Below are positions 1-63,197 of a stretch of 63,197 nucleotides of DNA, in pieces. The stretch lies in IMG/VR virus record IMGVR_UViG_3300036766_001076, positions 1 to 63,197 of that record; one strand, given 5' to 3'. The notes under the pieces are model-generated. The model worked only from the letters and a program-made list of their open reading frames with translations, searched no databases and was not told the DNA's origin. The translations under genes were made by a program, and so were the position numbers. The DNA is from a virus. Position 1 is the first letter of the stretch. Each line of letters opens with the position of its first letter.

Positions 1-182
1 TCACCCCCCGGCCGAGCCGATCCGCCTTGGTCAAGGCGCGGGATTTCTCCTCCGCGAGCCGGTGCCGGGTTTCTGAGAGCGGCTCCCGGGATTCCTGGTG
101 CAGCGTGTGCGCGACCCAGAGACCAATCGCTCCGGCCATGATCGTGTCGTCGTGGGCGCCGGGCGCAGCTTCGCCGTCCCAG
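1..182. repeat. Left copy of the end repeat (circular overlap)
   Basis: These bases match 63016-63197. The first 127 bases are identical; the last 55 differ at roughly a dozen sites. The two versions encode nearly the same terminase peptide (HDDTIMAG here, HDDCILAG in the right copy). This is best read as closure of a circular assembly with two alleles in the population. A true terminal repeat is possible but less likely, because phage terminal repeats are normally identical. Confidence 0.85.
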
Positions 183-841
183 ATCGCTCCGGCGGTCTGA
201 AAATCCGCCAGCTCCGTGATCGTGTGCGGCGAGTTGATTTTGTAGTCCGGCTCCCCGGAGTGCTTGTCTACCGTTTTGATCGCGTGGAAATACCGCTGGA
301 GGATCATCGGCCGGGTGCGGCCGTTGGTGTACCACCCGAAGGAGTTGCGGAAGCGTTTGTCCTGATCGACCGAGTCTTCGACCTGCCAGATGAAGAGGTT
401 CTCGTAGCCGACGTGCCGGAGGAGTTCGGACTGGGTGCCGAGCCCGAGGCCGAAGTTGCACTCGATTGCGACGACCGCCGGGAGGCCGTTGGACCCTTTG
501 TAGAGATAGCCGATCGGCGCAATGAGATAGGCGAGATCGATCGGGTCCACGATCGACGAGACAAATTGCGCGACTTGTTCTTCGCCTTCGTAGAGGTTGC
601 CTGCGCGGGTGACTTCGATGACCGAGCGGTCCGCGCCCATGCCTCCGGACACGTCGACCGAGAGGACATAGAGATGCCCGCGGCGCGGAGGCTCCCAGAT
701 AAGCAGGATGTCGAACAGCCCGGCGTCGTCGTCCCAGAGGAGGCGCTCGGCGCGGTCTGCGACGGGGAGGACTTTGAGGCCGTAGCCGGGCGGGATCTGG
801 AGAGCGACTTTGTCAGGAACCTCCGCGACGTCAGGAGCCAT
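1..841 (-). CDS. terL: Terminase large subunit, nuclease half (runs through the circular join)
   Basis: This is the DNA-cutting half of the packaging motor. It begins with ATG at 841, overlapping the stop of the PAPS-reductase-like gene by 11 bases, and reads through base 1 into 63015, ending with TAG at 62921-62923, about 311 residues in all. The RNase H-like fold is recognisable from LYVLSVDVSGGMGADRS around residue 60, which carries the first catalytic Asp, from VAIECN around residue 120, and from HDDTIMAG near residue 250. There is no Walker A motif. The ATPase half is a separate gene (1981-3249), and together they total about 733 residues, the size of a normal large terminase. Nuclease assignment is from motifs; assembly with the ATPase half is inferred. 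Confidence 0.85.
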   Translation of the reverse strand, partial: MAPDVAEVPDKVALQIPPGYGLKVLPVADRAERLLWDDDAGLFDILLIWEPPRRGHLYVLSVDVSGGMGADRSVIEVTRAGNLYEGEEQVAQFVSSIVDPIDLAYLIAPIGYLYKGSNGLPAVVAIECNFGLGLGTQSELLRHVGYENLFIWQVEDSVDQDKRFRNSFGWYTNGRTRPMILQRYFHAIKTVDKHSGEPDYKINSPHTITELADFQTAGAIWDGEAAPGAHDDTIMAGAIGLWVAHTLHQESREPLSETRHRLAEEKSRALTKADRLGRGV

Positions 842-1619
842 GTTTGCACACCGTACAATCTTCAACGACTGCCTCCGGGAAATCCTCCGGGTGCACTGAT
901 GCAATCAAAGTACCCCACGCAAACCGACGGCCGAGTCCGAGGATACGTGACTTCCCGTTGGCGAGCGCCTGTGCCTCCATTATCGTAGCCCGTGCGGACA
1001 GCTCAGGATGTCGTAGATGCAGTTCGAGTATCTCGGGCTTTGTACTCGACGGGCAGTAGAAACAGGCCGACTTCGGCGGGATCGGTAGTGATTCCGCGTG
1101 AATACGCCGAACGCATTCATCACGATCCCACTTCCAGTCGATCAGTGGATACACCTTGGTGAAGCCTTTGTCTCCGGCTTCGGTCATTCGTTCTTCTTCA
1201 CCGAACTCAAACCCGATTGCGCGTTGTACAAGCGTACCTGCCGCCCACGCAAGTTGCGCTGGCGCCCATTGAGCAGCCCACCATTTGAAGGGGTCAATCT
1301 TCCATTTGTCCGCGCAGGTCGAGTATCCGTACGCTCGCGAAGGCATATAGCCGAGGCGCAGACACTCTTCTTCCAATGATCGATCACCGGTCTTGGTCCG
1401 CCCGAAATCCGCTCGGCAGACTGTCGTCAGTGGCGGGAAATCATTTGCGGCCAACCACACAGGAAGAATCTGGCGAAGGTAGAAGTACGTCTCTGGTTTC
1501 TCTCCGCGAGTATCGGCGAACACGATAGCATCGGGACGGTAGCCGTGAATCTTCATCCCTATGCACATCGCCAACGAGTCTACCCCGCCGCCGTACGAGA
1601 CCACCAATGGATCAGACAT
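831..1619 (-). CDS. PAPS-reductase/ATP pyrophosphatase-family protein inserted between terminase halves
   Basis: A 262-residue protein of the phosphoadenosine phosphosulfate reductase family, which carries out adenylation or sulfur chemistry with a PP-loop. The PP-loop is visible at the N-terminus as SYGGGVDSLA. Later cysteine pairs, CFYCPS near residue 190 and CTVC at the C-terminus, could bind metal or an Fe-S cluster. I chose the ATG at 1619 because a GGGGAG ribosome site precedes it; an in-frame ATG exists 15 bases upstream. It sits between the terminase nuclease and ATPase genes. Members of this family are common as phage accessory genes and their substrates are mostly unknown, so no reaction is assigned. 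Confidence 0.75.
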   Translation of the reverse strand: MSDPLVVSYGGGVDSLAMCIGMKIHGYRPDAIVFADTRGEKPETYFYLRQILPVWLAANDFPPLTTVCRADFGRTKTGDRSLEEECLRLGYMPSRAYGYSTCADKWKIDPFKWWAAQWAPAQLAWAAGTLVQRAIGFEFGEEERMTEAGDKGFTKVYPLIDWKWDRDECVRRIHAESLPIPPKSACFYCPSSTKPEILELHLRHPELSARATIMEAQALANGKSRILGLGRRFAWGTLIASVHPEDFPEAVVEDCTVCKHGS

Positions 1620-1653
1620 GCGCGATCTCCCCATACGGTTTGACTTCGATCAT
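1612..1653 (-). repeat. 42-bp duplicate of the terminase ATPase 3' end (copy B)
   Basis: This segment differs from 1981-2022 at five positions. Read on the minus strand it is a 13-codon ORF, MIEVKPYGEIAHV then stop, almost the same as the last 13 residues of the ATPase half (MIDVKPYREIAHV). It overlaps the stop of the 112-residue gene by ATGA and contains the ribosome site and ATG of the PAPS-reductase-like gene. It looks like a relic showing that the ATPase gene once directly preceded that gene. Confidence 0.8.
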
Positions 1654-1988
1654 TCGTCAATACGTGTGTAACCGGCCTCGAACGCCTTTGCAGGGCTGAA
1701 GGACATATAGCCGTCGTCGTAGAGTACGAAGTAACCACCGATTTGTGGCTTGTGCTTCTTCAGATATGGTACATCCACGCGAATCGGCTCTATACCTTCT
1801 TCGACGGGCACAATGTGCGCGCCGTGCAGGCCGATGACGGAGCCGTCGGGCAAAATCTCCACGACCTCATCCTGATCAAGCGCCCGTTCGATTTCGGCAA
1901 TCGAAGGCTGTTCAAGGCGTGCCGTAATGGCCTTGATCTTCACTGCACGGACTTCCTTATGGCACTTGTACCGAGGCATGTCAGACAT
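1650..1988 (-). CDS. Conserved small phage protein (GGYFVLYDDGY type)
   Basis: A 112-residue soluble protein. It has an N-terminal PRYKCHKEVRAVKI stretch and a C-terminal GGYFVLYDDGYMSFSP segment followed by AFEAGYTRI. Proteins with this two-ended signature recur as small accessory genes in tailed phages, usually unassigned. The ATG lies inside the terminase ATPase stop region (ATGTCTGA overlap) after GGGAG, so translation is probably coupled. It lies between two copies of a 42-bp repeat, which suggests it entered the terminase locus as a discrete insertion. Function unknown. Confidence 0.75.
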   Translation of the reverse strand: MSDMPRYKCHKEVRAVKIKAITARLEQPSIAEIERALDQDEVVEILPDGSVIGLHGAHIVPVEEGIEPIRVDVPYLKKHKPQIGGYFVLYDDGYMSFSPAKAFEAGYTRIDE

Positions 1989-2022
1989 GGGCGATCTCCC
2001 TGTATGGTTTGACGTCGATCAT
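1981..2022 (-). repeat. 42-bp terminase ATPase 3' end (copy A)
   Basis: The original copy of the repeat found again at 1612-1653. It holds the last 13 codons and stop of the ATPase half together with the ribosome site and ATG of the next gene, so one short segment is both a gene end and a translation start for its neighbour. Confidence 0.8.
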
Positions 2023-3249
2023 CCCCTTGAGCGGCCGGGCCTGCGCCTTGATCCGCTCGCGCAGGAGCACTGGCACCACCGACTTGGTCGCATATTGAAA
2101 CGCCTCGTCATCATCCGCCGGGTGCTCTTGGAGAAATTCTTCCAGTTGCTCTTTCGCTTCTGCCTCAGCGCGGGTTGTCTCGTACCAACAGAGCTGCTCG
2201 CGGGAGAGCTTCACCGGCCGGTGCAGCCAGCGCGGCCCTTGCTCCTCGGCTCGTCGAGCGTGCGCAAGCGTCGTGAGTGAAGGGGACCAGCCCACCGGCG
2301 CTGGCAACCAATGCCTCGACGCCTCCGCGTACCATGGAATGAAAATGTTGTGCGCGCGGGATTTGCCGGACTTGGCAAGCTGCCACTCCAGCCACCACCA
2401 GTTGGTTTTGCCCCGCCCTTGGGCGGTCGATTCCCGCATCCAGAAGGTCAGAGGAGAAACCGCCACCGCTGGCTTGAGCGACACGTCGATCTGCTCAGGC
2501 CGGGTCCAGGTCGCCAATTCTGAATTGTGAATGCAGCTCAGGGTTTTCCCGCGAGCGAGCTGACCCTTGAGGCCGTCCTGCGCGTTCCTCCCGGATTTGT
2601 CCGCGCCGCGGGTGGATTTGGAGGCTCCCCAAAAGAGATGAGACTCCGTGCCGAACAAAAACAAGTCGTTCTTCACCCGCTCTTTCGCGGTCGGCTTCAT
2701 GTACCACGGCAGGTGATCGTAAATCCGCTCGAACATGTCCCAGAGGAAGTCGGAGGAGTCTGGGACATCTGAGGCGAGAAGCCCAAACACGTTCGCGTGC
2801 GTGAGGAGACGATGCGCGAGGATCGCGATGGACAGGGTAGAACCTCCTACCTGTCTGTCCTTGAGCAAATTGACAACGATCCCGTCCGGGTGCCCCTGCT
2901 CGTAGTTCGCCCATTCGACCCTGGCGATCTCGGCGAGGATCAGTTTCTGCGTCTCCCACAGCGGGTAGAGCTTCCCGAGTGCCTGCCCGCCGATGTTGAT
3001 CGTGGTGTACCGCTCCGAGAAATACTTGAAGTCGATCTTGCCGAGGATCTGCTCGTTGACCACAAACGCCTGCTCAGCTTTGGAGAGCGGCCGGGTCTGC
3101 GCGCCTTTCCGGTCCCAGAGGTCCGCCATGCGGAATTGGAATTCCTTGACCTCTTCCACGGAGAATTCCTGCAGTCCGCGCGGGAGATCCTGCGCGAGGG
3201 TACGCTCGACTATTCCACGGCGGATCGCAACGAGTTGAGAGGAGTACAT
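1981..3249 (-). CDS. terL: Terminase large subunit, ATPase half
   Basis: A 422-residue packaging ATPase. Walker A is DRQVGGST near residue 115, preceded by the hydrophobic strand GIVVNLLK. Walker B is SCIHNSELATW near residue 230, with the catalytic Glu. The protein stops after KPYREIAHV without any nuclease domain; that domain is encoded separately at 841 and below. I start at the ATG at 3249 (AGGG eight bases upstream), because the longer upstream reading is arginine- and serine-rich shadow sequence over the lipoprotein gene. A trans-acting two-piece terminase is inferred from the intact motifs in both halves. A recent split by insertion is the alternative reading. Confidence 0.85.
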   Translation of the reverse strand: MYSSQLVAIRRGIVERTLAQDLPRGLQEFSVEEVKEFQFRMADLWDRKGAQTRPLSKAEQAFVVNEQILGKIDFKYFSERYTTINIGGQALGKLYPLWETQKLILAEIARVEWANYEQGHPDGIVVNLLKDRQVGGSTLSIAILAHRLLTHANVFGLLASDVPDSSDFLWDMFERIYDHLPWYMKPTAKERVKNDLFLFGTESHLFWGASKSTRGADKSGRNAQDGLKGQLARGKTLSCIHNSELATWTRPEQIDVSLKPAVAVSPLTFWMRESTAQGRGKTNWWWLEWQLAKSGKSRAHNIFIPWYAEASRHWLPAPVGWSPSLTTLAHARRAEEQGPRWLHRPVKLSREQLCWYETTRAEAEAKEQLEEFLQEHPADDDEAFQYATKSVVPVLLRERIKAQARPLKGMIDVKPYREIAHV

Positions 3250-23068: not shown

Positions 23069-23530
23069 GTGGGCAGAGACGAAGAGTTCAATCAGCGCCG
23101 CCGCAAGCAACTCCTCGTCGATACCGCCGCGTCGGCCAAAATCCTCGACCGCTTCGGCCGGGTGCTGATCCCCGGCGCGCAGGTCGTCTACCGATCACCG
23201 ATCGATCTGGTCTTCACGGTCGCCGACGTGGCCCCGGTGCTCGACCCTCGCGCACAGGCCGGGCTGCACCAAGTCAAACTCCTCTGCGAGGTCACGCTTC
23301 CGGCGATGGACCGGCTCCCGGTGGATCTCTTGATCATGGTGGCGGCGCCGCGTACGGCAGCGGAGCAAGCGGCGGACAACGGTGACCAGCGCGCAGAAGC
23401 GGAAACCCCGCCCGCTCCGGCCGGATCAGCGCCGCTCATCGTCCTCCCGCCGGGGACGGCGGTTGACACTGAGGAACCTGCGGCACCGGACAGCCCGGGC
23501 GCGCCGCCCGAATTTGACGACGAACCGTAG
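23069..23530 (+). CDS. Hypothetical protein (153 aa)
   Basis: GTG start directly after the ligase stop. Basic N-terminus (FNQRRRKQLLVDTAASAKI), a beta core with RVLIPGAQVVYRSPIDLVF, and a disordered Pro/Ala/Glu tail. No family recognised; the beta core could bind RNA or single-stranded DNA. Confidence 0.5.
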   Translation: MGRDEEFNQRRRKQLLVDTAASAKILDRFGRVLIPGAQVVYRSPIDLVFTVADVAPVLDPRAQAGLHQVKLLCEVTLPAMDRLPVDLLIMVAAPRTAAEQAADNGDQRAEAETPPAPAGSAPLIVLPPGTAVDTEEPAAPDSPGAPPEFDDEP

Positions 23531-23542
23531 GAGAACATTGCG

Positions 23543-23815
23543 ATGGCTGACCGTGCTGCTGCGCGTACCAACGACAACGATCGTGAACCGACCTCGGCGG
23601 ACATCGGCCCGGTCAACGGGACCGTCCGGAGGATCCTCGCCGACAAAGGCTTCGGGTTCGTGCTGCTCGAAGACGGCAAGACGGAGATTTTCTTCCACAA
23701 GACAAGCTTCGGCGGCGAGGAGGCCTTCGAGGATCTGCAACCCGACGACAAGGTCACCGTGGTCTACGCCAACACGCGCAAGGGGTGGCGGGCGAGCCGG
23801 GTGAATCTGCGGTGA
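23543..23815 (+). CDS. csp: Cold-shock domain protein
   Basis: A 90-residue protein with a CSD fold. RNP1 is KGFGFV near residue 38 and RNP2 IFFHKTSF near residue 52; the start NGTVRRILADKGFGFV is canonical. About 20 residues of disordered N-terminus precede the domain. Such proteins bind single-stranded RNA or DNA. It lies between the RNA ligase and the helicase, consistent with RNA/DNA chaperone work during replication. Confidence 0.85.
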   Translation: MADRAAARTNDNDREPTSADIGPVNGTVRRILADKGFGFVLLEDGKTEIFFHKTSFGGEEAFEDLQPDDKVTVVYANTRKGWRASRVNLR

Positions 23816-25107
23816 CCGACGATCTTGGGTTTCGTGACGATGCTCCGGCAGGCGAGATGCCTGCCCCGCCGCCTGTAGAGAACGTCGACGACCCGCTCTG
23901 GGCGGCGATCATGGGCACGGCAGGCACCGGGAAAACCACCCTCGCCCGGCTCGACGCCGACACCTGCGACGACGTCATTCTCTGCGCAACGACCGGGATC
24001 GCGGCGGTGAACATCGGCGCGTGTACGATAAATAGTTTGCTCTGGTACTACGACACCGCGGATCTCCGTACACAGTACGAAGTAGGCAAACTGAACGTCG
24101 CCCTGCGGAAGATCGCGGATTCAGGGTTTCGGCGGATCTACCTGGACGAAGTCTCTATGATGGACGGACGCCAGCTCGACATTCTCTGCCTCGCGCTCGA
24201 TCAACTCAACGAGACCCGCGCCGGCCGGGACGAAGCGCCGCTCGGGATGACCCTCATCGGAGATTTCGCGCAGCTCCCGCCGGTGAACGCGCCGTTTGTG
24301 TTCGAGCGCCCCGCATGGAAACGCTTCGAGGCCGGGATGATCACGCTAACCGAGCCGCGCCGCCAAGCCGACGCCTCGTTTGTGGCCGCGCTCCAGGCCG
24401 TACGCCGTGGAGACATCGGCCACGCGCTCGCCTACTTCAGTACGAGAATCCAGCCCTACGAGCAGCGCGACTTCAATGGGACGACCATCCTCGCCAAGAA
24501 CGACGAGGTCGATCGATACAACGCCGTGCGGATGCTGGAACTGACGACGCCTGAGCACGAGTACCTCGCCAAGCGCACCGGCCAAGGGGATCCGGCGTGG
24601 AAGCACATCCCGGAAAAACTCATCCTCAAACCCGGAGCCTTGGTCATGATCCTAGCGAACCGCCGCGAGAAGGTCGACGGGTTGGAGCCGCACGAATGGC
24701 CGATGATCTACGCGAATGGGGATCTTGGGATCTATCTTGGGCAGGACGGCGGCGGACGGGCGAGGGTCGAGCTGCATCGGGGCGGCGAGGTCACCGTGCA
24801 ATCCGTGACGCGGCAGAGAACCAAAGCCACCGGGAACAAGGGCGTGAAGGTGGCGCGCGAGGACGTGCTAGGGAGTATTACGTACACTCCCGTACGAGTG
24901 GCGTACGCCTCGACTTGTCACCGATCACAGGGTCTCTCACTCGACAATGTCCAAGTCATGTTCCACAGTCATTTCTGGACGCAGCCCTCGATGTTGTACG
25001 TGGCCATGTCTCGCGCGAGAACGCCTGAAGGGCTGCGGCTCGTCGGCAATGTGAAGCAATTCGAGAAGAGGATCGTGGTCGATCCTAAGATCAGGAGATG
25101 GCTGTGA
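23812..25107 (+). CDS. Pif1/RecD-like SF1 helicase
   Basis: A 431-residue helicase starting at GTG in a GTGA overlap with the cold-shock gene. Motifs in order: Walker A GTAGTGKTT near residue 38, DEVSMMDG (motif II) near 110, GDFAQLPPV (motif III) near 145, LTEPRRQ (motif IV region) near 183, and AYASTCHRSQGLSLDNV with YVAMSRAR (motifs V/VI) near 365-400. This is the Pif1/Dda pattern of 5'-3' helicases that clear proteins or start replication in phages. Confidence 0.85.
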   Translation: MTDDLGFRDDAPAGEMPAPPPVENVDDPLWAAIMGTAGTGKTTLARLDADTCDDVILCATTGIAAVNIGACTINSLLWYYDTADLRTQYEVGKLNVALRKIADSGFRRIYLDEVSMMDGRQLDILCLALDQLNETRAGRDEAPLGMTLIGDFAQLPPVNAPFVFERPAWKRFEAGMITLTEPRRQADASFVAALQAVRRGDIGHALAYFSTRIQPYEQRDFNGTTILAKNDEVDRYNAVRMLELTTPEHEYLAKRTGQGDPAWKHIPEKLILKPGALVMILANRREKVDGLEPHEWPMIYANGDLGIYLGQDGGGRARVELHRGGEVTVQSVTRQRTKATGNKGVKVAREDVLGSITYTPVRVAYASTCHRSQGLSLDNVQVMFHSHFWTQPSMLYVAMSRARTPEGLRLVGNVKQFEKRIVVDPKIRRWL

Positions 25108-55080: not shown

Positions 55081-56136
55081 TTAGCCGTTGATGCCGAAGA
55101 GCTGCCGTTGCAGCCGGGACGAACGGCAGGTCACGTTGCCGCCGAAGAGGATCTGGCCCGCGACCGTGGTCGAGTCCTGCGCCACCTTGAAGCCGGTGAA
55201 GCCGAACTGGAACTTGGTCGAGGTCGAAATCCGCAGTTTGAGGTACGCGTCCTCGCCCTCGGGGCCGGGGTTGAGCCACCAGAAGGTCTCGGTGGCGTTG
55301 TTGTAGTTGCCCAGATCGGCGTCGTTCACGCCGTCGGCGCCGGGGCAGTACTGCGACTCGATGATTGTCGCCTGCTTGAACTTGACCCCGACGTAGCCGA
55401 TGGTCGGCTCGATCGCGTCGACAACCTGATGGGGCTGGAAGTTCTCCGAGATGTAGCCCATCGTCCGGTTGGTCGTGACGCCGATGACCGGATGCTCGGC
55501 ACCGAGCACGAGTGACTGGTACGTGTGTTCGAGTGCCCGGAAGGTGATCGCACCCGCGAGGTTCGAGTTGATGAGGCCGACCGGGGTCTTGATCGCCGCC
55601 CCGACATCCGCGCGGACCTGCGATCCGTAGGACGAGAAGGCCGAGCCTTCCCAGCCTGCGTTGGTGCCGTCGTTGAGGGCTTCATCCAGCCCGTTCAGCA
55701 TGATCGAACGGTCGGTCCCGCCGACATTCTGCCCGTTCTTGTAGAGGTCGATGGCGAGAATCGCCGACATGGTGAGCGCGGCGTTCCCGAGGTCCGTCTT
55801 GACCATCGAGAGGACGGCGGTGGACCCGTTGACCTCGATCTCGATCTCTTCGAGGAGTTCGGGCACTGACACCTGGTAGTAGCGCGGCGTGAACTGCAGA
55901 CCGGCGAAGGTCTGCCGCTTGGAGATGTCGAACCCGCCGACGCCCTTGGCGTAGGCTGAGCCCTTCATCGGCTTGAAGAGGAAGTTCTCCTGCACGAGCG
56001 GGCCGCCGGGGTACTTGTGGACCCGGCGCTTCAGGAACTCCAGCAGTGGATCGTTCTTGAAGAAGTTGTCCGCCAACCCCGGCATGATGTTCTTCGTTGC
56101 CGCGGTGTTGACGGGATCCAGATTGGGCGCTGCCAT
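55081..56136 (-). CDS. Major capsid protein (HK97-like)
   Basis: A 351-residue capsid protein. NFFKNDPLLEFLKRRVHKYP near residue 25, PRYYQVSVPELLEEIEIEVN near 85 (the E-loop/long helix region) and GVTTNRTMGYISENFQPHQV near 225 (the P- and A-domain transition) fit HK97-fold capsids of podoviruses. The scaffold gene follows directly upstream in the operon, and two hairpins separate the two, perhaps raising capsid expression. Confidence 0.75.
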   Translation of the reverse strand: MAAPNLDPVNTAATKNIMPGLADNFFKNDPLLEFLKRRVHKYPGGPLVQENFLFKPMKGSAYAKGVGGFDISKRQTFAGLQFTPRYYQVSVPELLEEIEIEVNGSTAVLSMVKTDLGNAALTMSAILAIDLYKNGQNVGGTDRSIMLNGLDEALNDGTNAGWEGSAFSSYGSQVRADVGAAIKTPVGLINSNLAGAITFRALEHTYQSLVLGAEHPVIGVTTNRTMGYISENFQPHQVVDAIEPTIGYVGVKFKQATIIESQYCPGADGVNDADLGNYNNATETFWWLNPGPEGEDAYLKLRISTSTKFQFGFTGFKVAQDSTTVAGQILFGGNVTCRSSRLQRQLFGING

Positions 56137-56939: not shown

Positions 56940-57034
56940 TACGAATACTCCTGCCTCACGGCCTTCAGAGCTGCGCCGTCAGCGCGGGATTGCGCCTGGT
57001 GCAGATGAGTCAGCTTGAGGGTTTCTCGGATCAC
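56939..57034 (-). CDS. Micro-protein between endonuclease and scaffold (31 aa)
   Basis: GTG start overlapping the LAGLIDADG-type gene's stop (GTGA); its own stop overlaps the scaffold ATG (TAATG). The sequence is VIRETLKLTHLHQAQSRADG and a basic tail. It may serve mainly to couple translation from the endonuclease gene to the scaffold gene. Confidence 0.45.
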   Translation of the reverse strand: MIRETLKLTHLHQAQSRADGAALKAVRQEYS

Positions 57035-57570
57035 GACGCGACCTCCGCAGGCACCGAGAGAACAACCTGCTTCGGTTCCGGTACATCACGGTAGAGCCGA
57101 TTGATTCGGCGGCATTCCTCCCAGTACTGTTCCGCGCGAATACGCCTGTCTTCGGACATTCCGTATCCTTGGCGCGGAATTGTCTGTAGATACCAACGCC
57201 CGAACTCAATGCCCAATGACGCGACGTGCCGTTTGTTGACCAAGAACGGAAAAATAGCCTCCAAGAAATACAACGCCCTGGCACCAGTCAAGGACCATCC
57301 CCAATACGTTGTGTTGGGGTGCGTCGCATCCTTTCGCACGATGACTGTCCCTCCGAACCACGCAGCCAGTAGTAACAACGGCTCCTTGTTTCGTTGCGAG
57401 ACGGAGGCACACATTCGGTACGTCGGACGTCCTGCGTACGGCCTCACTACTCCACGGTACAACGCCGGATCTCCTCGATAACGATTCCGCGCAGGCTTCC
57501 GTTGAATACCCACGCTACCTTCACCGTCAAAGAACCCTGCCGTCCATGCGCGTTCAAGTTCGGTTGCCAT
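57031..57570 (-). CDS. LAGLIDADG-like homing endonuclease
   Basis: A 179-residue free-standing endonuclease. AWTAGFFDGEGSVGIQRKP near residue 8 is the catalytic LAGLIDADG helix (F-x-D-G-E-G form), then NTTYWGWSLTGARALYFLEA and a second domain-like part. It lies inside the head gene row, between a small head gene and the scaffold, not in an intron I can detect. Such genes move between phages by cutting an empty site. Confidence 0.8.
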   Translation of the reverse strand: MATELERAWTAGFFDGEGSVGIQRKPARNRYRGDPALYRGVVRPYAGRPTYRMCASVSQRNKEPLLLLAAWFGGTVIVRKDATHPNTTYWGWSLTGARALYFLEAIFPFLVNKRHVASLGIEFGRWYLQTIPRQGYGMSEDRRIRAEQYWEECRRINRLYRDVPEPKQVVLSVPAEVAS

Positions 57571-59903: not shown

Positions 59904-62006
59904 CTACTTCTCCGGCCCCTTCTTGTGGTCGTGCCGGGACTCGGCCATCTTGATACGTTGACCGCCACCGGGCATCGGCTGGGTCTCCACATGCGGCGAG
60001 GTCTGCCCGGAGGCTTTGCGCCCGGCGGGATTGACCTCCATCCCAAGGCCGAGCATGGCTTGGGCTTGCAGCCGCTCGGTGATGGTGGTCGGCTCGCGCA
60101 AGGTCAGCGCCTGCCCGGTGTTCGGGTCGATGTTCGCGCCGGGGACCATGCCTTGTGAGATTGCCAACAAGGTCTGCTCGTCCGGTTGTTTCTCCATCGG
60201 CAGCATCATGATCGGCGGCTTGCCGACATTCGGCACTTCGAGCTTCTCCATGAGCGTCCAGAAATCGCACCAGCCCGCACGGGCGAGCTGGATGTATTTC
60301 ATCTGTTCGGACTTGGCGTTGAGCGCGAGCAAAGAATTCGGCGTGACGTAGAAGGTGAAGAGCTTCAGGAAAAACTGCGCCCGATCGCGCTGGTCAATAT
60401 TGGCGTTGAGCTGCGGGAGGTAGCCTTTGGTCGGCTGGCCGGTTTGGGGATCCGTCTCCTGCATCGCCGGGATGAGATTCCCCGGATCGTAGTCGAAGTC
60501 TTCGAGGGTCAGCCCGGCGTCGCCGAGGACCATCATCCGGCGCTCTTGGTCGTAGAACTGGAAGAAATTCGCCTTCATCATGTCGGCGAGTTCACGCAAG
60601 GTGACTTCGATCTGGCGGCCTTCGAGCTTCAACTCCGGCGAGAGCGCCGCCATGAAGGCTTCGATGGATTCGGGGTCCGGGATCTGGTGGAGCGCCGCCT
60701 GCTGCAAGGCATCGAGCGTGGAATCCCCCGCGATCTCGTGGAAGATCGACCGGAGCGATTGGAAGAGTTCAAACGTGTTCGCGGGGAGATCCGGGAGTAC
60801 CGGGATCTGAATCCCGGTGCCGACTTGTTCATTCGTGTGAATCTTGGTGTTCGGCTTCCGCAGGTCCGTCTGCGCGAGCATGGTCCGCGGCACGCGCGAG
60901 TTCCCGACCATCGCGGGAGCCGCGGCGATTTTGACCTTCTGGATCATCGTTGACGCGAGTTCGTTGATCGCGTCTTGCAGCGGCATCATCGCATTGACAA
61001 TCGGGAGCCCGAAGAAGGACCACGGCCAGCGGTCCAGCATGAGGCGCGTGACCGGGAAGAGTCCGTGCCAGTAGGTGTTCGGGCCGTCGTAGAGGATGAC
61101 GCGCTCCGTGCAGACAATGAGGCGCTTGCGCGGGTAGAGACGGTCGCCCGGTTTCACCAGGTACGACCAGGAGGTACCGGGCTGCCCCATGAGGACCGGG
61201 TGGCTGGTCGTGTTGACCTGCGCGTCGTGCAGGTAGCAGCGGTACAACACGATCTCGTCGCCGATGAGACGCCCGGAGTGGGTTTTGTTCAGCCCGGAGA
61301 GGGTGGAGGTTTCGCCAGACCCCATAATCCGAGCGAAGGTCGCCTTGAATTTGGTGAACACGCCCGCGCCCCACGGAGTGTCCGAGCGGAGTTTGTCTGC
61401 GTGCTGCGGGTACATTGCCTTGAGGACATTCGGCGAGTGCGCTTCCCGGAGAATGCAGCCGAACCAGTTCTGGATCGACCCATCACGCGAAGGGCGGATC
61501 GGGACCGTGTCGCGAGGATCCCGTGCCATGAGCCGCATGTCGCCCATCGGCCCGAAGTAGGGATCGTATTCGAGGACGAGGTCGCCGGCTCCGGCGGTGG
61601 CGGCGTACTTCGCGGCGTCGGCGAGGGCCAGATCGGCGAAGGTGTTGATCCACCAGACCGTGACGAGCGTGTTGAGAAGCAGACCGTGCTGCTGAAAGTT
61701 CGGGTTCCCGGTGCGGTACGCGAACACCGGCTTGATGTCGGTGAGCGCCGAGACATGCCGGCGGATCGAGCGGTGGGTTTCGTTGATGACGACTTTGGAG
61801 AGATAGGCCGGGTTGAAGGCGGTTGAGGCGAGGATTTTCTGCTTCCCGAGGACGTAGTCCATGTTGGAGTCCATGGAGTCGTACAACGGGTCGTTTTTCA
61901 TCAGCCCTTCGCCTTCGAGGACGGCCTCGCGGAGCCAATTGAGGACTGGTCCAGATCCCGGAAAGGCGTTGGAGCCGGTGAGAAGCGGATTGTCGGAGGC
62001 GGCCAT
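59904..62006 (-). CDS. Portal protein (700 aa)
   Basis: A 700-residue portal. An N-terminal helical segment with LREAVLEGEGLMKNDPLYDS; FGPMGDMRLMARDPRDTVPI near residue 160, a beta wing; then a C-terminal long helix region with ELVASTMIQK-type spacing and EQLQAQAMLGLGME. Large size, place beside terminase genes and typical 'DPRDT' segment fit podovirus portals. It forms the DNA entry ring with the terminase. Confidence 0.75.
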   Translation of the reverse strand: MAASDNPLLTGSNAFPGSGPVLNWLREAVLEGEGLMKNDPLYDSMDSNMDYVLGKQKILASTAFNPAYLSKVVINETHRSIRRHVSALTDIKPVFAYRTGNPNFQQHGLLLNTLVTVWWINTFADLALADAAKYAATAGAGDLVLEYDPYFGPMGDMRLMARDPRDTVPIRPSRDGSIQNWFGCILREAHSPNVLKAMYPQHADKLRSDTPWGAGVFTKFKATFARIMGSGETSTLSGLNKTHSGRLIGDEIVLYRCYLHDAQVNTTSHPVLMGQPGTSWSYLVKPGDRLYPRKRLIVCTERVILYDGPNTYWHGLFPVTRLMLDRWPWSFFGLPIVNAMMPLQDAINELASTMIQKVKIAAAPAMVGNSRVPRTMLAQTDLRKPNTKIHTNEQVGTGIQIPVLPDLPANTFELFQSLRSIFHEIAGDSTLDALQQAALHQIPDPESIEAFMAALSPELKLEGRQIEVTLRELADMMKANFFQFYDQERRMMVLGDAGLTLEDFDYDPGNLIPAMQETDPQTGQPTKGYLPQLNANIDQRDRAQFFLKLFTFYVTPNSLLALNAKSEQMKYIQLARAGWCDFWTLMEKLEVPNVGKPPIMMLPMEKQPDEQTLLAISQGMVPGANIDPNTGQALTLREPTTITERLQAQAMLGLGMEVNPAGRKASGQTSPHVETQPMPGGGQRIKMAESRHDHKKGPEK

Positions 62007-62512
62007 CAGGCAGGCTTGCGGGTCGCCCCGCCGTGGATTTTCAACTTTTTCTGCTTCCCGGTGAACTTCTCAACCGGGATTTGCCGCTCCCGCTCAAATT
62101 CACTCCCCTTGAGCGAGTTCACGTCCTTGTTCGAAGAATCCTGGTTGAACGCGCGCACGCTCACCGCGGCGCCGATGCCGTCCTTGGCCTTGCGGTGGGA
62201 CTCAGCTTCGACCGCGCGGATTTCTGAAAGGGAGGAGTAACGGCGAGGACCGTCACCGAGGTCGAACTGGATGTTCTCGGAGAGAAGCGAGCGGTACTGC
62301 TTCGCTGGGATCACGTCCATCTCCGCGCCGCAGTCACAGATCACCGGAAGGCGCGTCTCCTCGCCTTTGTAAGTCCGGGTCTCCTCAGGCACAGGCAACC
62401 ACGGCGCGCGGACGTCTTTTTGCTCAGCGCCGCAGGCCGGGCAGACGAAATCCAGTCGGCCATGGTAGCGGAGTTGATCCGCGATCTTGTCCAGTTCCTC
62501 AACCGCCGTCAT
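62006..62512 (-). CDS. Zinc-ribbon protein beside the portal (168 aa)
   Basis: A 168-residue protein. CPACGAEQK near residue 24 and CDCGAEMD near residue 60 form a zinc ribbon. The C-terminal half is basic and helical. It overlaps the next gene by its ATG. The place between portal and terminase end suggests a packaging or head protein; no family recognised. Confidence 0.55.
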   Translation of the reverse strand: MTAVEELDKIADQLRYHGRLDFVCPACGAEQKDVRAPWLPVPEETRTYKGEETRLPVICDCGAEMDVIPAKQYRSLLSENIQFDLGDGPRRYSSLSEIRAVEAESHRKAKDGIGAAVSVRAFNQDSSNKDVNSLKGSEFERERQIPVEKFTGKQKKLKIHGGATRKPA

Positions 62513-62904
62513 CAGACGTACCTGAAAAATTCCTGCGTCATCCGCTTGAAAATCTCCCCCAGCGCCTGCTCCACGGTTTTCTTCTCGTGCCGCGCACGGC
62601 GGGCGATCTCCTCCATTTGCCCGGCGGTCAGCTCCAGCCGGTGCTCCCCGAAGCGAATCGAGGCCAGCCGCCGGACCTTGGTCAGGAGGTCGGCGGAGTC
62701 CGTGAGAGAGCCGCCGGACAGAGCAGTCTCCAGTTTGGAGAGATCCACCCCGGTGACCACGAACCCCCGCGAGCGCGGGTCCAGGTCAATCGCCGCGTGG
62801 AGCCGGTGGGAGACCGAATCGTCGAGGGTGGATTGGCACGCCGCCGCTTCGTCTTGGAGAATTTCGACCAGATCGTCGGGAAGGGTCAGTTTCACAATCG
62901 CCAC
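62512..62904 (-). CDS. Hypothetical protein with ribbon-helix-like start (130 aa)
   Basis: GTG start at 62904 with GGAGG seven bases upstream; an ATG at 62940 overlapping the terminase end is an alternative. VAIVKLTLPDDLVEILQDEA opens like a ribbon-helix-helix domain, and the rest is helical (TAGQMEEIARRARHEKKTVE). Possibly DNA-binding; it directly follows the terminase nuclease. Confidence 0.5.
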   Translation of the reverse strand: MAIVKLTLPDDLVEILQDEAAACQSTLDDSVSHRLHAAIDLDPRSRGFVVTGVDLSKLETALSGGSLTDSADLLTKVRRLASIRFGEHRLELTAGQMEEIARRARHEKKTVEQALGEIFKRMTQEFFRYV

Positions 62905-62920
62905 GGGCTGCCTCCGAGTC

Positions 62921-63197
62921 CTAGAGATAATGCGGCTCATTCGTAATCATGTCAACCACGTCGCCGTCGGCGGTGCCGGAAATCTCCTCAGTCGTGCAGT
63001 CCATTGTCTGGTGATTCACCCCCCGGCCGAGCCGATCCGCCTTGGTCAAGGCGCGGGATTTCTCCTCCGCGAGCCGGTGCCGGGTTTCTGAGAGCGGCTC
63101 CCGGGATTCCTGGTGCAGCGTGTGCGCGACCCAGAGACCAATGGCCCCGGCGAGAATGCAGTCGTCGTGCGCGCCGGGTGCGGCTTCGCCGTCCCAG
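62921..63197 (-). CDS. terL: Terminase nuclease C-terminus, second copy at the right end
   Basis: The same frame as the gene at 1-841, from the right side of the circle. It holds the last 92 codons, starting in a version of the HDD-containing region that reads HDDCILAG in place of HDDTIMAG, and ends with TNEPHYL and TAG. It is the continuation of the left-end gene, with allelic differences in 63143-63197. Confidence 0.85.
   Translation of the reverse strand, partial: WDGEAAPGAHDDCILAGAIGLWVAHTLHQESREPLSETRHRLAEEKSRALTKADRLGRGVNHQTMDCTTEEISGTADGDVVDMITNEPHYL
63016..63197. repeat. Right copy of the end repeat (circular overlap)
   Basis: It matches 1-182, identical over 127 bases, then diverged. 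The two together mark the point at which the circle was opened. Confidence 0.85.

Follow-up and report, generated by a model that had tools for sequence, protein, structure and literature searches.

Given that models of viral DNA packaging count the hinge between the ATPase and nuclease domains of the terminase large subunit (TerL) as part of force transmission, we asked what to make of a phage in which these two domains are encoded by separate genes. The phage is known from IMG/VR record IMGVR_UViG_3300036766_001076, analysed here over its whole 63,197 nucleotides (nt; hereafter the window). A preliminary description made from its letters alone had reported an ATPase half and a nuclease half as separate genes, the latter starting at its own ATG, with a PAPS-reductase-like gene and a small phage gene between them, and had read the arrangement as a working motor and not as decay. 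All of these gene calls were confirmed. On the minus strand, the ATPase half runs from ATG to TGA at positions 3249-1981 (422 amino acids (aa); Walker A K-x-R-Q-x-G-G-S-T, Walker B SE), followed by the small gene at 1988-1650 (112 aa, minus strand; PHROG 11049, E 5e-27; PHROG 11049/872 family), whose start codon overlaps the ATPase stop at ATGTCTGA. The second inserted gene, encoding a PAPS-reductase/SspD-like ATP-pyrophosphatase (PHROG 424, E 3e-28; PADLOC SspD, E 2e-10), lies in an open reading frame (ORF) at 1634-831 of the same strand, probably starts at 1619, again at ATGTCTGA, and overlaps the nuclease start with its stop at ATGGCTCCTGA. The RNase H-like nuclease half begins with the ATG at 841 and reads down to position 1 (minus strand; motif I Asp63, motif II Glu127, motif III Asp231-Asp232), its C-terminal remainder continuing across the contig join at 63197-62921 (minus strand; stop at 62921-62923; 311 aa in total). 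We consider it likely that these genes form a maintained two-gene TerL, whose halves would be translated in a coupled manner and come together in the motor without a covalent bond.

To assign the two halves, we relied on profile and fold matches. A Pfam search gave no TerL match for either half. The ATPase half matches terminase large subunit phrog_5989 of PHROGs (E 3e-7), a profile built from its relatives matches the ATPase domain of T4 gp17 (E 7e-5), and the corresponding nuclease profile matches the nuclease domain of RB49 gp17 (E 7e-15). AlphaFold2 models of each half alone (predicted local distance difference test scores of 84 for the ATPase and 78 for the nuclease) found T4 gp17 as their best fold match in the PDB (2O0J; 3CPE). 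The pair thus provides an ASCE (additional strand, catalytic glutamate) ATPase with Walker A and B motifs and an RNase H-like nuclease with D / E / DD motifs, but not the single polypeptide with a hinge. As the domains are encoded separately in the window and in 43 relatives, our claim is for a two-gene TerL and not for an ordinary one. Neither the window nor any of nine other split-TerL records searched whole contained a second TerL; each of these 10 records holds exactly one ATPase and one nuclease gene, the window's nuclease gene appearing twice in that search only because it crosses the contig join.

We then asked how far the split extends. Profile-guided scans of viral contigs returned 247 relatives of the ATPase half and 101 of the nuclease half, 80 of each being fetched (loci labelled L### below). 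Of 155 loci classified, 77 carry a one-piece TerL and 67 a split one, duplicates and distant cases included; dereplication left 54 distinct one-piece and 44 distinct split sequences, the window among the latter. These last counts omit duplicates and two loci (L131 and L150) in which the apparent split is a frameshift inside the ATPase half, at profile position 374, and which were also excluded from the catalytic-residue counts given below. The 43 further distinct split loci come from about 40 metagenomes, and in every one the break falls at the ATPase-nuclease linker, 3' of the EEAFQ...SGRSIF region and 5' of the nuclease start IWE.PR.G..Y(V/I)...D(V/I). Because dozens of independent contigs share it, the split goes far beyond chance: it is old and maintained. 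One-piece versions, for which the preliminary description had proposed a search, are present in related genomes. At ~40% identity, their TerL is ~765 aa long (e.g., L064, L066 and L095; ~763 aa) and aligns with both halves and through the linker. Both scans of genome contigs yielded no relatives, and hence no link to a host or prophage.

The joint itself is exact. In all 19 of the 19 insert-free joints tabulated (L001 and 18 others), the ATPase and nuclease genes meet in a start/stop overlap of 1, 4, 8 or 11 nt; which of the two other frames the nuclease uses differs from locus to locus. The closest series comes from two contigs of one metagenome, whose proteins are 93-98% identical to those of the window: L001 has no joint gene, its halves overlapping by 8 nt (ATGTCTGA), whereas L002 has one, the 112-aa gene, which begins at the same ATG as the L001 nuclease and ends in ATGA at the nuclease start, and the window has two. 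A more distant relative (L003, 46-49% identical) carries a different joint gene, of 63 aa. The inserted genes are therefore not the cause of the split, as close relatives carry none, one or two of them and other loci carry different ones; their presence stands as first described, but a causal part for them falls away, with 19 split loci carrying none.

Both halves are under purifying selection and functional by every available sequence test. The Walker A Lys/Arg, the Walker B Glu, the motif III Ser and the nuclease D, E and DD are kept in all 44 split members covering the stretch, the exceptions being exchanges of the S/T type within Walker A/B (with G once replacing the Walker B Ser) and a single D-to-N change at the second Asp of motif I. 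The ratio of nonsynonymous to synonymous substitution rates (dN/dS) among the window, L001 and L002 is 0.03-0.05 for the ATPase half and 0.12-0.17 for the nuclease half. Moreover, no relative had a full-length half with decayed catalytic residues. The earlier statements that both halves keep their catalytic motifs, and that this is not decay, are thus borne out by the intact residues, the low dN/dS and the single TerL.

Phylogenetic analysis placed the split in several lineages, intermingled with one-piece lineages of the same family. In a concatenated tree of 99 sequences, a set that still contained the frameshifted L131, the two states require 5 changes, compared with ~33 in shuffles; in the tree of the reduced set lacking L131, the starred branches force at least 3 changes of state. 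A single split clade was rejected on the reduced set (delta log-likelihood 185; approximately unbiased (AU) test, p ~ 3e-66), which tells against a single origin of the split state, and the interleaving of the two forms implies fission and/or fusion on several occasions. The split noted in this phage therefore holds, though not as a peculiarity of it, since several lineages share it. Trees of the ATPase half and of the nuclease half recover the same small groups. In the first tree, a large one-piece clade is nested within the split diversity, and re-fusion of a split TerL appears to be a live possibility; the outgroups that would root the tree, and so give the direction (fission or fusion), are very distant and on long branches. 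The linkers of one-piece family members measure ~78-128 aa between fixed points, versus 53-68 in four distant outgroups, and such long linkers may have made a cut tolerable.

How might such a motor be built? We propose that an ancestral one-piece TerL (ATPase, linker, nuclease) was divided within its interdomain linker into two separately encoded proteins. These would be read off one operon, the second by coupled termination-reinitiation, as suggested by the overlap of each start with the preceding stop and by the GGGAG inside the end of the window's ATPase gene; coupled translation from one message would supply similar amounts of both. The halves would then assemble non-covalently, side by side on the portal like the domains of a one-piece TerL, and DNA would be pumped and cut without a covalent hinge. 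Since the joint is a start/stop overlap and not an open frame, it would tolerate additional coupled genes. Several points weigh against this proposal. T4 gp17 split at the linker keeps its ATPase and nuclease activities but loses translocation completely (PMC3012670; PMC9958956), and a non-covalent motor would thus need an extra interface or tail contacts. In addition, the fold models are of the halves taken singly, the evidence for a two-chain motor lies at the level of sequence, and all split-TerL members are uncultured contigs. A stronger domain interface may replace the hinge, as may contacts through the extended ATPase tail, which spans 36-104 residues beyond the EAF motif in split members, or through the conserved, PPGYG-containing nuclease head.

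The structure of the joints also bears on explanations that would spare the phage a two-chain motor. A single TerL would be restored if one gene were interrupted by a self-splicing intron or a (split) intein, and precedents exist in the group I introns that split terL of Jug phages (PMC12363816) and the TerL inteins of Mic1 (PMC7156551), as well as among the relatives collected here: at the Walker B site of a distant one (L029) there is a group I intron, and in four others (L015, L112, L114 and L116) an in-frame insertion of ~260 aa lies at Walker A, that of L015 being intein-like. However, the 1-11 nt overlaps of L001 and 18 other split loci leave no space for either element, Rfam was negative in the window, L001, L002, L003, L011 and L017, and a split intein would not fit in the ~38 aa that follow EAF in the window's ATPase half or the ~16 aa that precede PPGYG in its nuclease half. 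For the window group this explanation is refuted, and we give it hardly any weight in general. Ribosomal frameshifting or readthrough could instead yield some fused TerL, and the overlap of the two frames in L001, CAT GTC TGA C, loosely resembles a +1 shift at a stop. Yet one frame would be needed in L001, L010 and L021 and the other in L013, L014, L015 and L024; a whole gene with its own stop intervenes in L002, L003, L012, L020, L022, L023, L025 and the window; 3.6-3.7 kb separate the halves in L017, L018 and L019; and the spacing of GGGAG would suit initiation at the overlapping ATG. Fusion by recoding is accordingly very improbable. The preliminary description had named an intron or frameshift joining the halves as what would overturn its reading; no intron, intein or shared frameshift was found.

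That TerL is being lost, or that the contigs are wrong, might be supposed from their metagenomic source, from the imperfect overlap of the window's ends, from the ATPase-half frameshift of L131 and L150, which may be an error, and from the TerL of phage phiPDS1, which lies in two coding sequences and whose authors suspected a codon-table or assembly issue (PMC10773633). Against this stand the recurrence of one joint across 44 distinct loci (about 40 metagenomes), the intact motifs, the low dN/dS values and the lack of a spare TerL, and it is the explanation to which we assign the least probability. More serious, if still unlikely, is a functional parting in which the ATPase half pumps alone, like small nuclease-less packaging ATPases, and the nuclease half merely cuts. 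Separate genes permit unequal expression, the lengths of the ATPase tail and nuclease head vary freely, and T4 with a mutated nuclease remains able to package pre-cut DNA (PMC9958956). Nonetheless, the genes keep together and start/stop coupled in nearly every case, the trees of both halves give the same small groups, and split and one-piece forms interleave, all of which favours a shared stoichiometric complex, as in the coupled two-gene TerL proposed above.

Of note, interrupting elements occur in their own right among these relatives. The L029 intron (L029:5214-5418; Rfam RF00028, 90.9 bits) sits in a distantly related terL. The L015 insertion (L015:4804-6930) opens with Cys and closes with HN before Ser, as inteins do, which would make it an intein within an already split TerL; it sits at Walker A, away from the joint, where no intein was found. 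Among carriers of the Walker A insertion, L015, L112 and L116 have a split TerL and L114 a one-piece one.

What the joint carries varies widely. Tad2-like (Thoeris anti-defence 2) genes occupy it in L020 and L023 (Pfam PF11195, E 3e-23 and 1e-24), and L018 and L019 hold 3.6 kb encoding a subtilase (S8), an M15-like peptidase, lipoprotein-like and membrane proteins and others (L018:1612-5222), to which a 3.7-kb block in L017 (2237-5973) is related; the inserts of L017 and L018 are unusually large cargo within a terminase. The joint of L011 holds a weakly matched ORF, below the Pfam cut-off, and further split loci have several short joint genes without an identified match. In phrog_872, the first half corresponds to the window's 112-aa protein and the second to the Tad2-like joint genes, so the two occur joined elsewhere, and one may speculate that the 112-aa gene, too, has an anti-defence role. 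As for how such genes come and go, the window offers a clue: the 42-nt end of its ATPase gene (1981-2022, minus strand), comprising the Shine-Dalgarno-like GGGAG and the ATGTCTGA start/stop overlap, recurs at 1612-1653 (minus strand, 88% identical), directly before the PAPS-like gene, with no further copy within the window. The ATPase end of L001 matches this second copy more closely (38/40) than does that of the window itself (35/40). Most simply, the PAPS-like gene would have been acquired from another member's joint by homologous recombination, leaving the second copy as the scar, and joint genes in general would probably move by recombination on this short sequence.

Some small genes (joint genes at L025:5720-5971, L028:3689-3991 and L034:3709-4035; also in L033, L073 and L109) share a signal-peptide-like leader, RR...LRSLLALPIAA. 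The stretch following it is similar to the start of the major capsid-like protein that the window encodes at 55081-56136 (N-terminal part; E ~ 4e-5 to 7e-5 for L025 and L028). An ORF at L001:55-321 has a similar leader followed by a stretch that by eye is like the capsid C-terminus, with no BLAST hit.

The remainder of the locus is that of a packaging/head module. Downstream of the nuclease half lie two small genes (142 and 168 aa; 62006-62940, minus strand), conserved in L001, L003 and partly L002, and the portal gene (59904-62006, minus strand; PHROG 156, E 6.5e-10), so that the TerL genes adjoin the portal in the same order as in L001 and L003. The contig join crossing the nuclease half is very likely real despite the imperfect end: positions 1-182 and 63016-63197 overlap with 171/182 identical (94%), all 11 mismatches falling within the last ~55 nt, where they could reflect strain variation or end-of-contig error. 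Among the virion genes, an ORF at 57031-57570 (minus strand) resembles HNH/LAGLIDADG homing endonucleases (phrog_5046, E 8e-19).

Annotation uses TerL as its standard marker of tailed phages and may easily score a split one as a fragment; it is also unusual in itself for accessory genes to have an insertion site within a gene that ranks among the most conserved of phages. By its motifs and joints, the locus is a two-gene TerL broken at the very linker whose cutting stops T4 gp17 in the laboratory. On balance, although with less assurance than for the two-gene TerL as such, we favour a hinge-free motor that has switched between one-chain and two-chain form several times in one phage family, its gene joint accommodating a changing set of cargo genes, anti-defence (Tad2-like) ones among them. 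If so, phages living with the cut would show either that a suitable interface makes the hinge unnecessary or that another contact takes its place. T4 gp17's loss of translocation when cut at the same linker makes the two-chain reading testable, and relatives with one-piece and two-piece motors constitute a ready natural experiment.

Among known systems, we found no report of a conserved two-gene TerL in open-access full texts (subscription papers lay outside the search). The nearest candidate, Parabacteroides phage phiPDS1 (PMC10773633, MN929097), is a cultured phage whose TerL domains are annotated as two coding sequences; however, positions 23502-25054 of MN929097 (L157) hold one gene whose frame changes close to where the ATPase part ends, in a single genome, with neither a domain split nor an independent conserved gene start, and its TerL type is apparently different. 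A frame change within a gene, as opposed to the nuclease's own starts in split loci, rules it out as the same phenomenon. Jug huge phages carry terL in two or three pieces, but RNA splicing rejoins these, whereas no intron is present here (PMC12363816); a comparable arrangement, in a different gene, is the OM43 phage DNA polymerase that a small ORF divides (PMC10580990). T4 gp17 (2O0H, 3CPE) and the RB49 gp17 nuclease (3C6A) are the best profile and fold matches of the two halves, and the break between the halves corresponds in position to the interdomain linker region, yet T4 gp17 requires its covalent hinge for translocation (PMC3012670). Tunturiibacter phage Tunturi_1 (PP887698, 723 aa) shares the ATPase and nuclease families, the catalytic residues and the order terL, small gene, portal, but its TerL is one polypeptide and only ~26-30% identical. 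Closest of all are the one-piece TerLs of the same family (L064, L066 and L095), which have the same ATPase and nuclease families and catalytic residues, and in the L064 type also PPGYGF at the nuclease head, and differ in being one polypeptide with a linker of ~78-128 aa.

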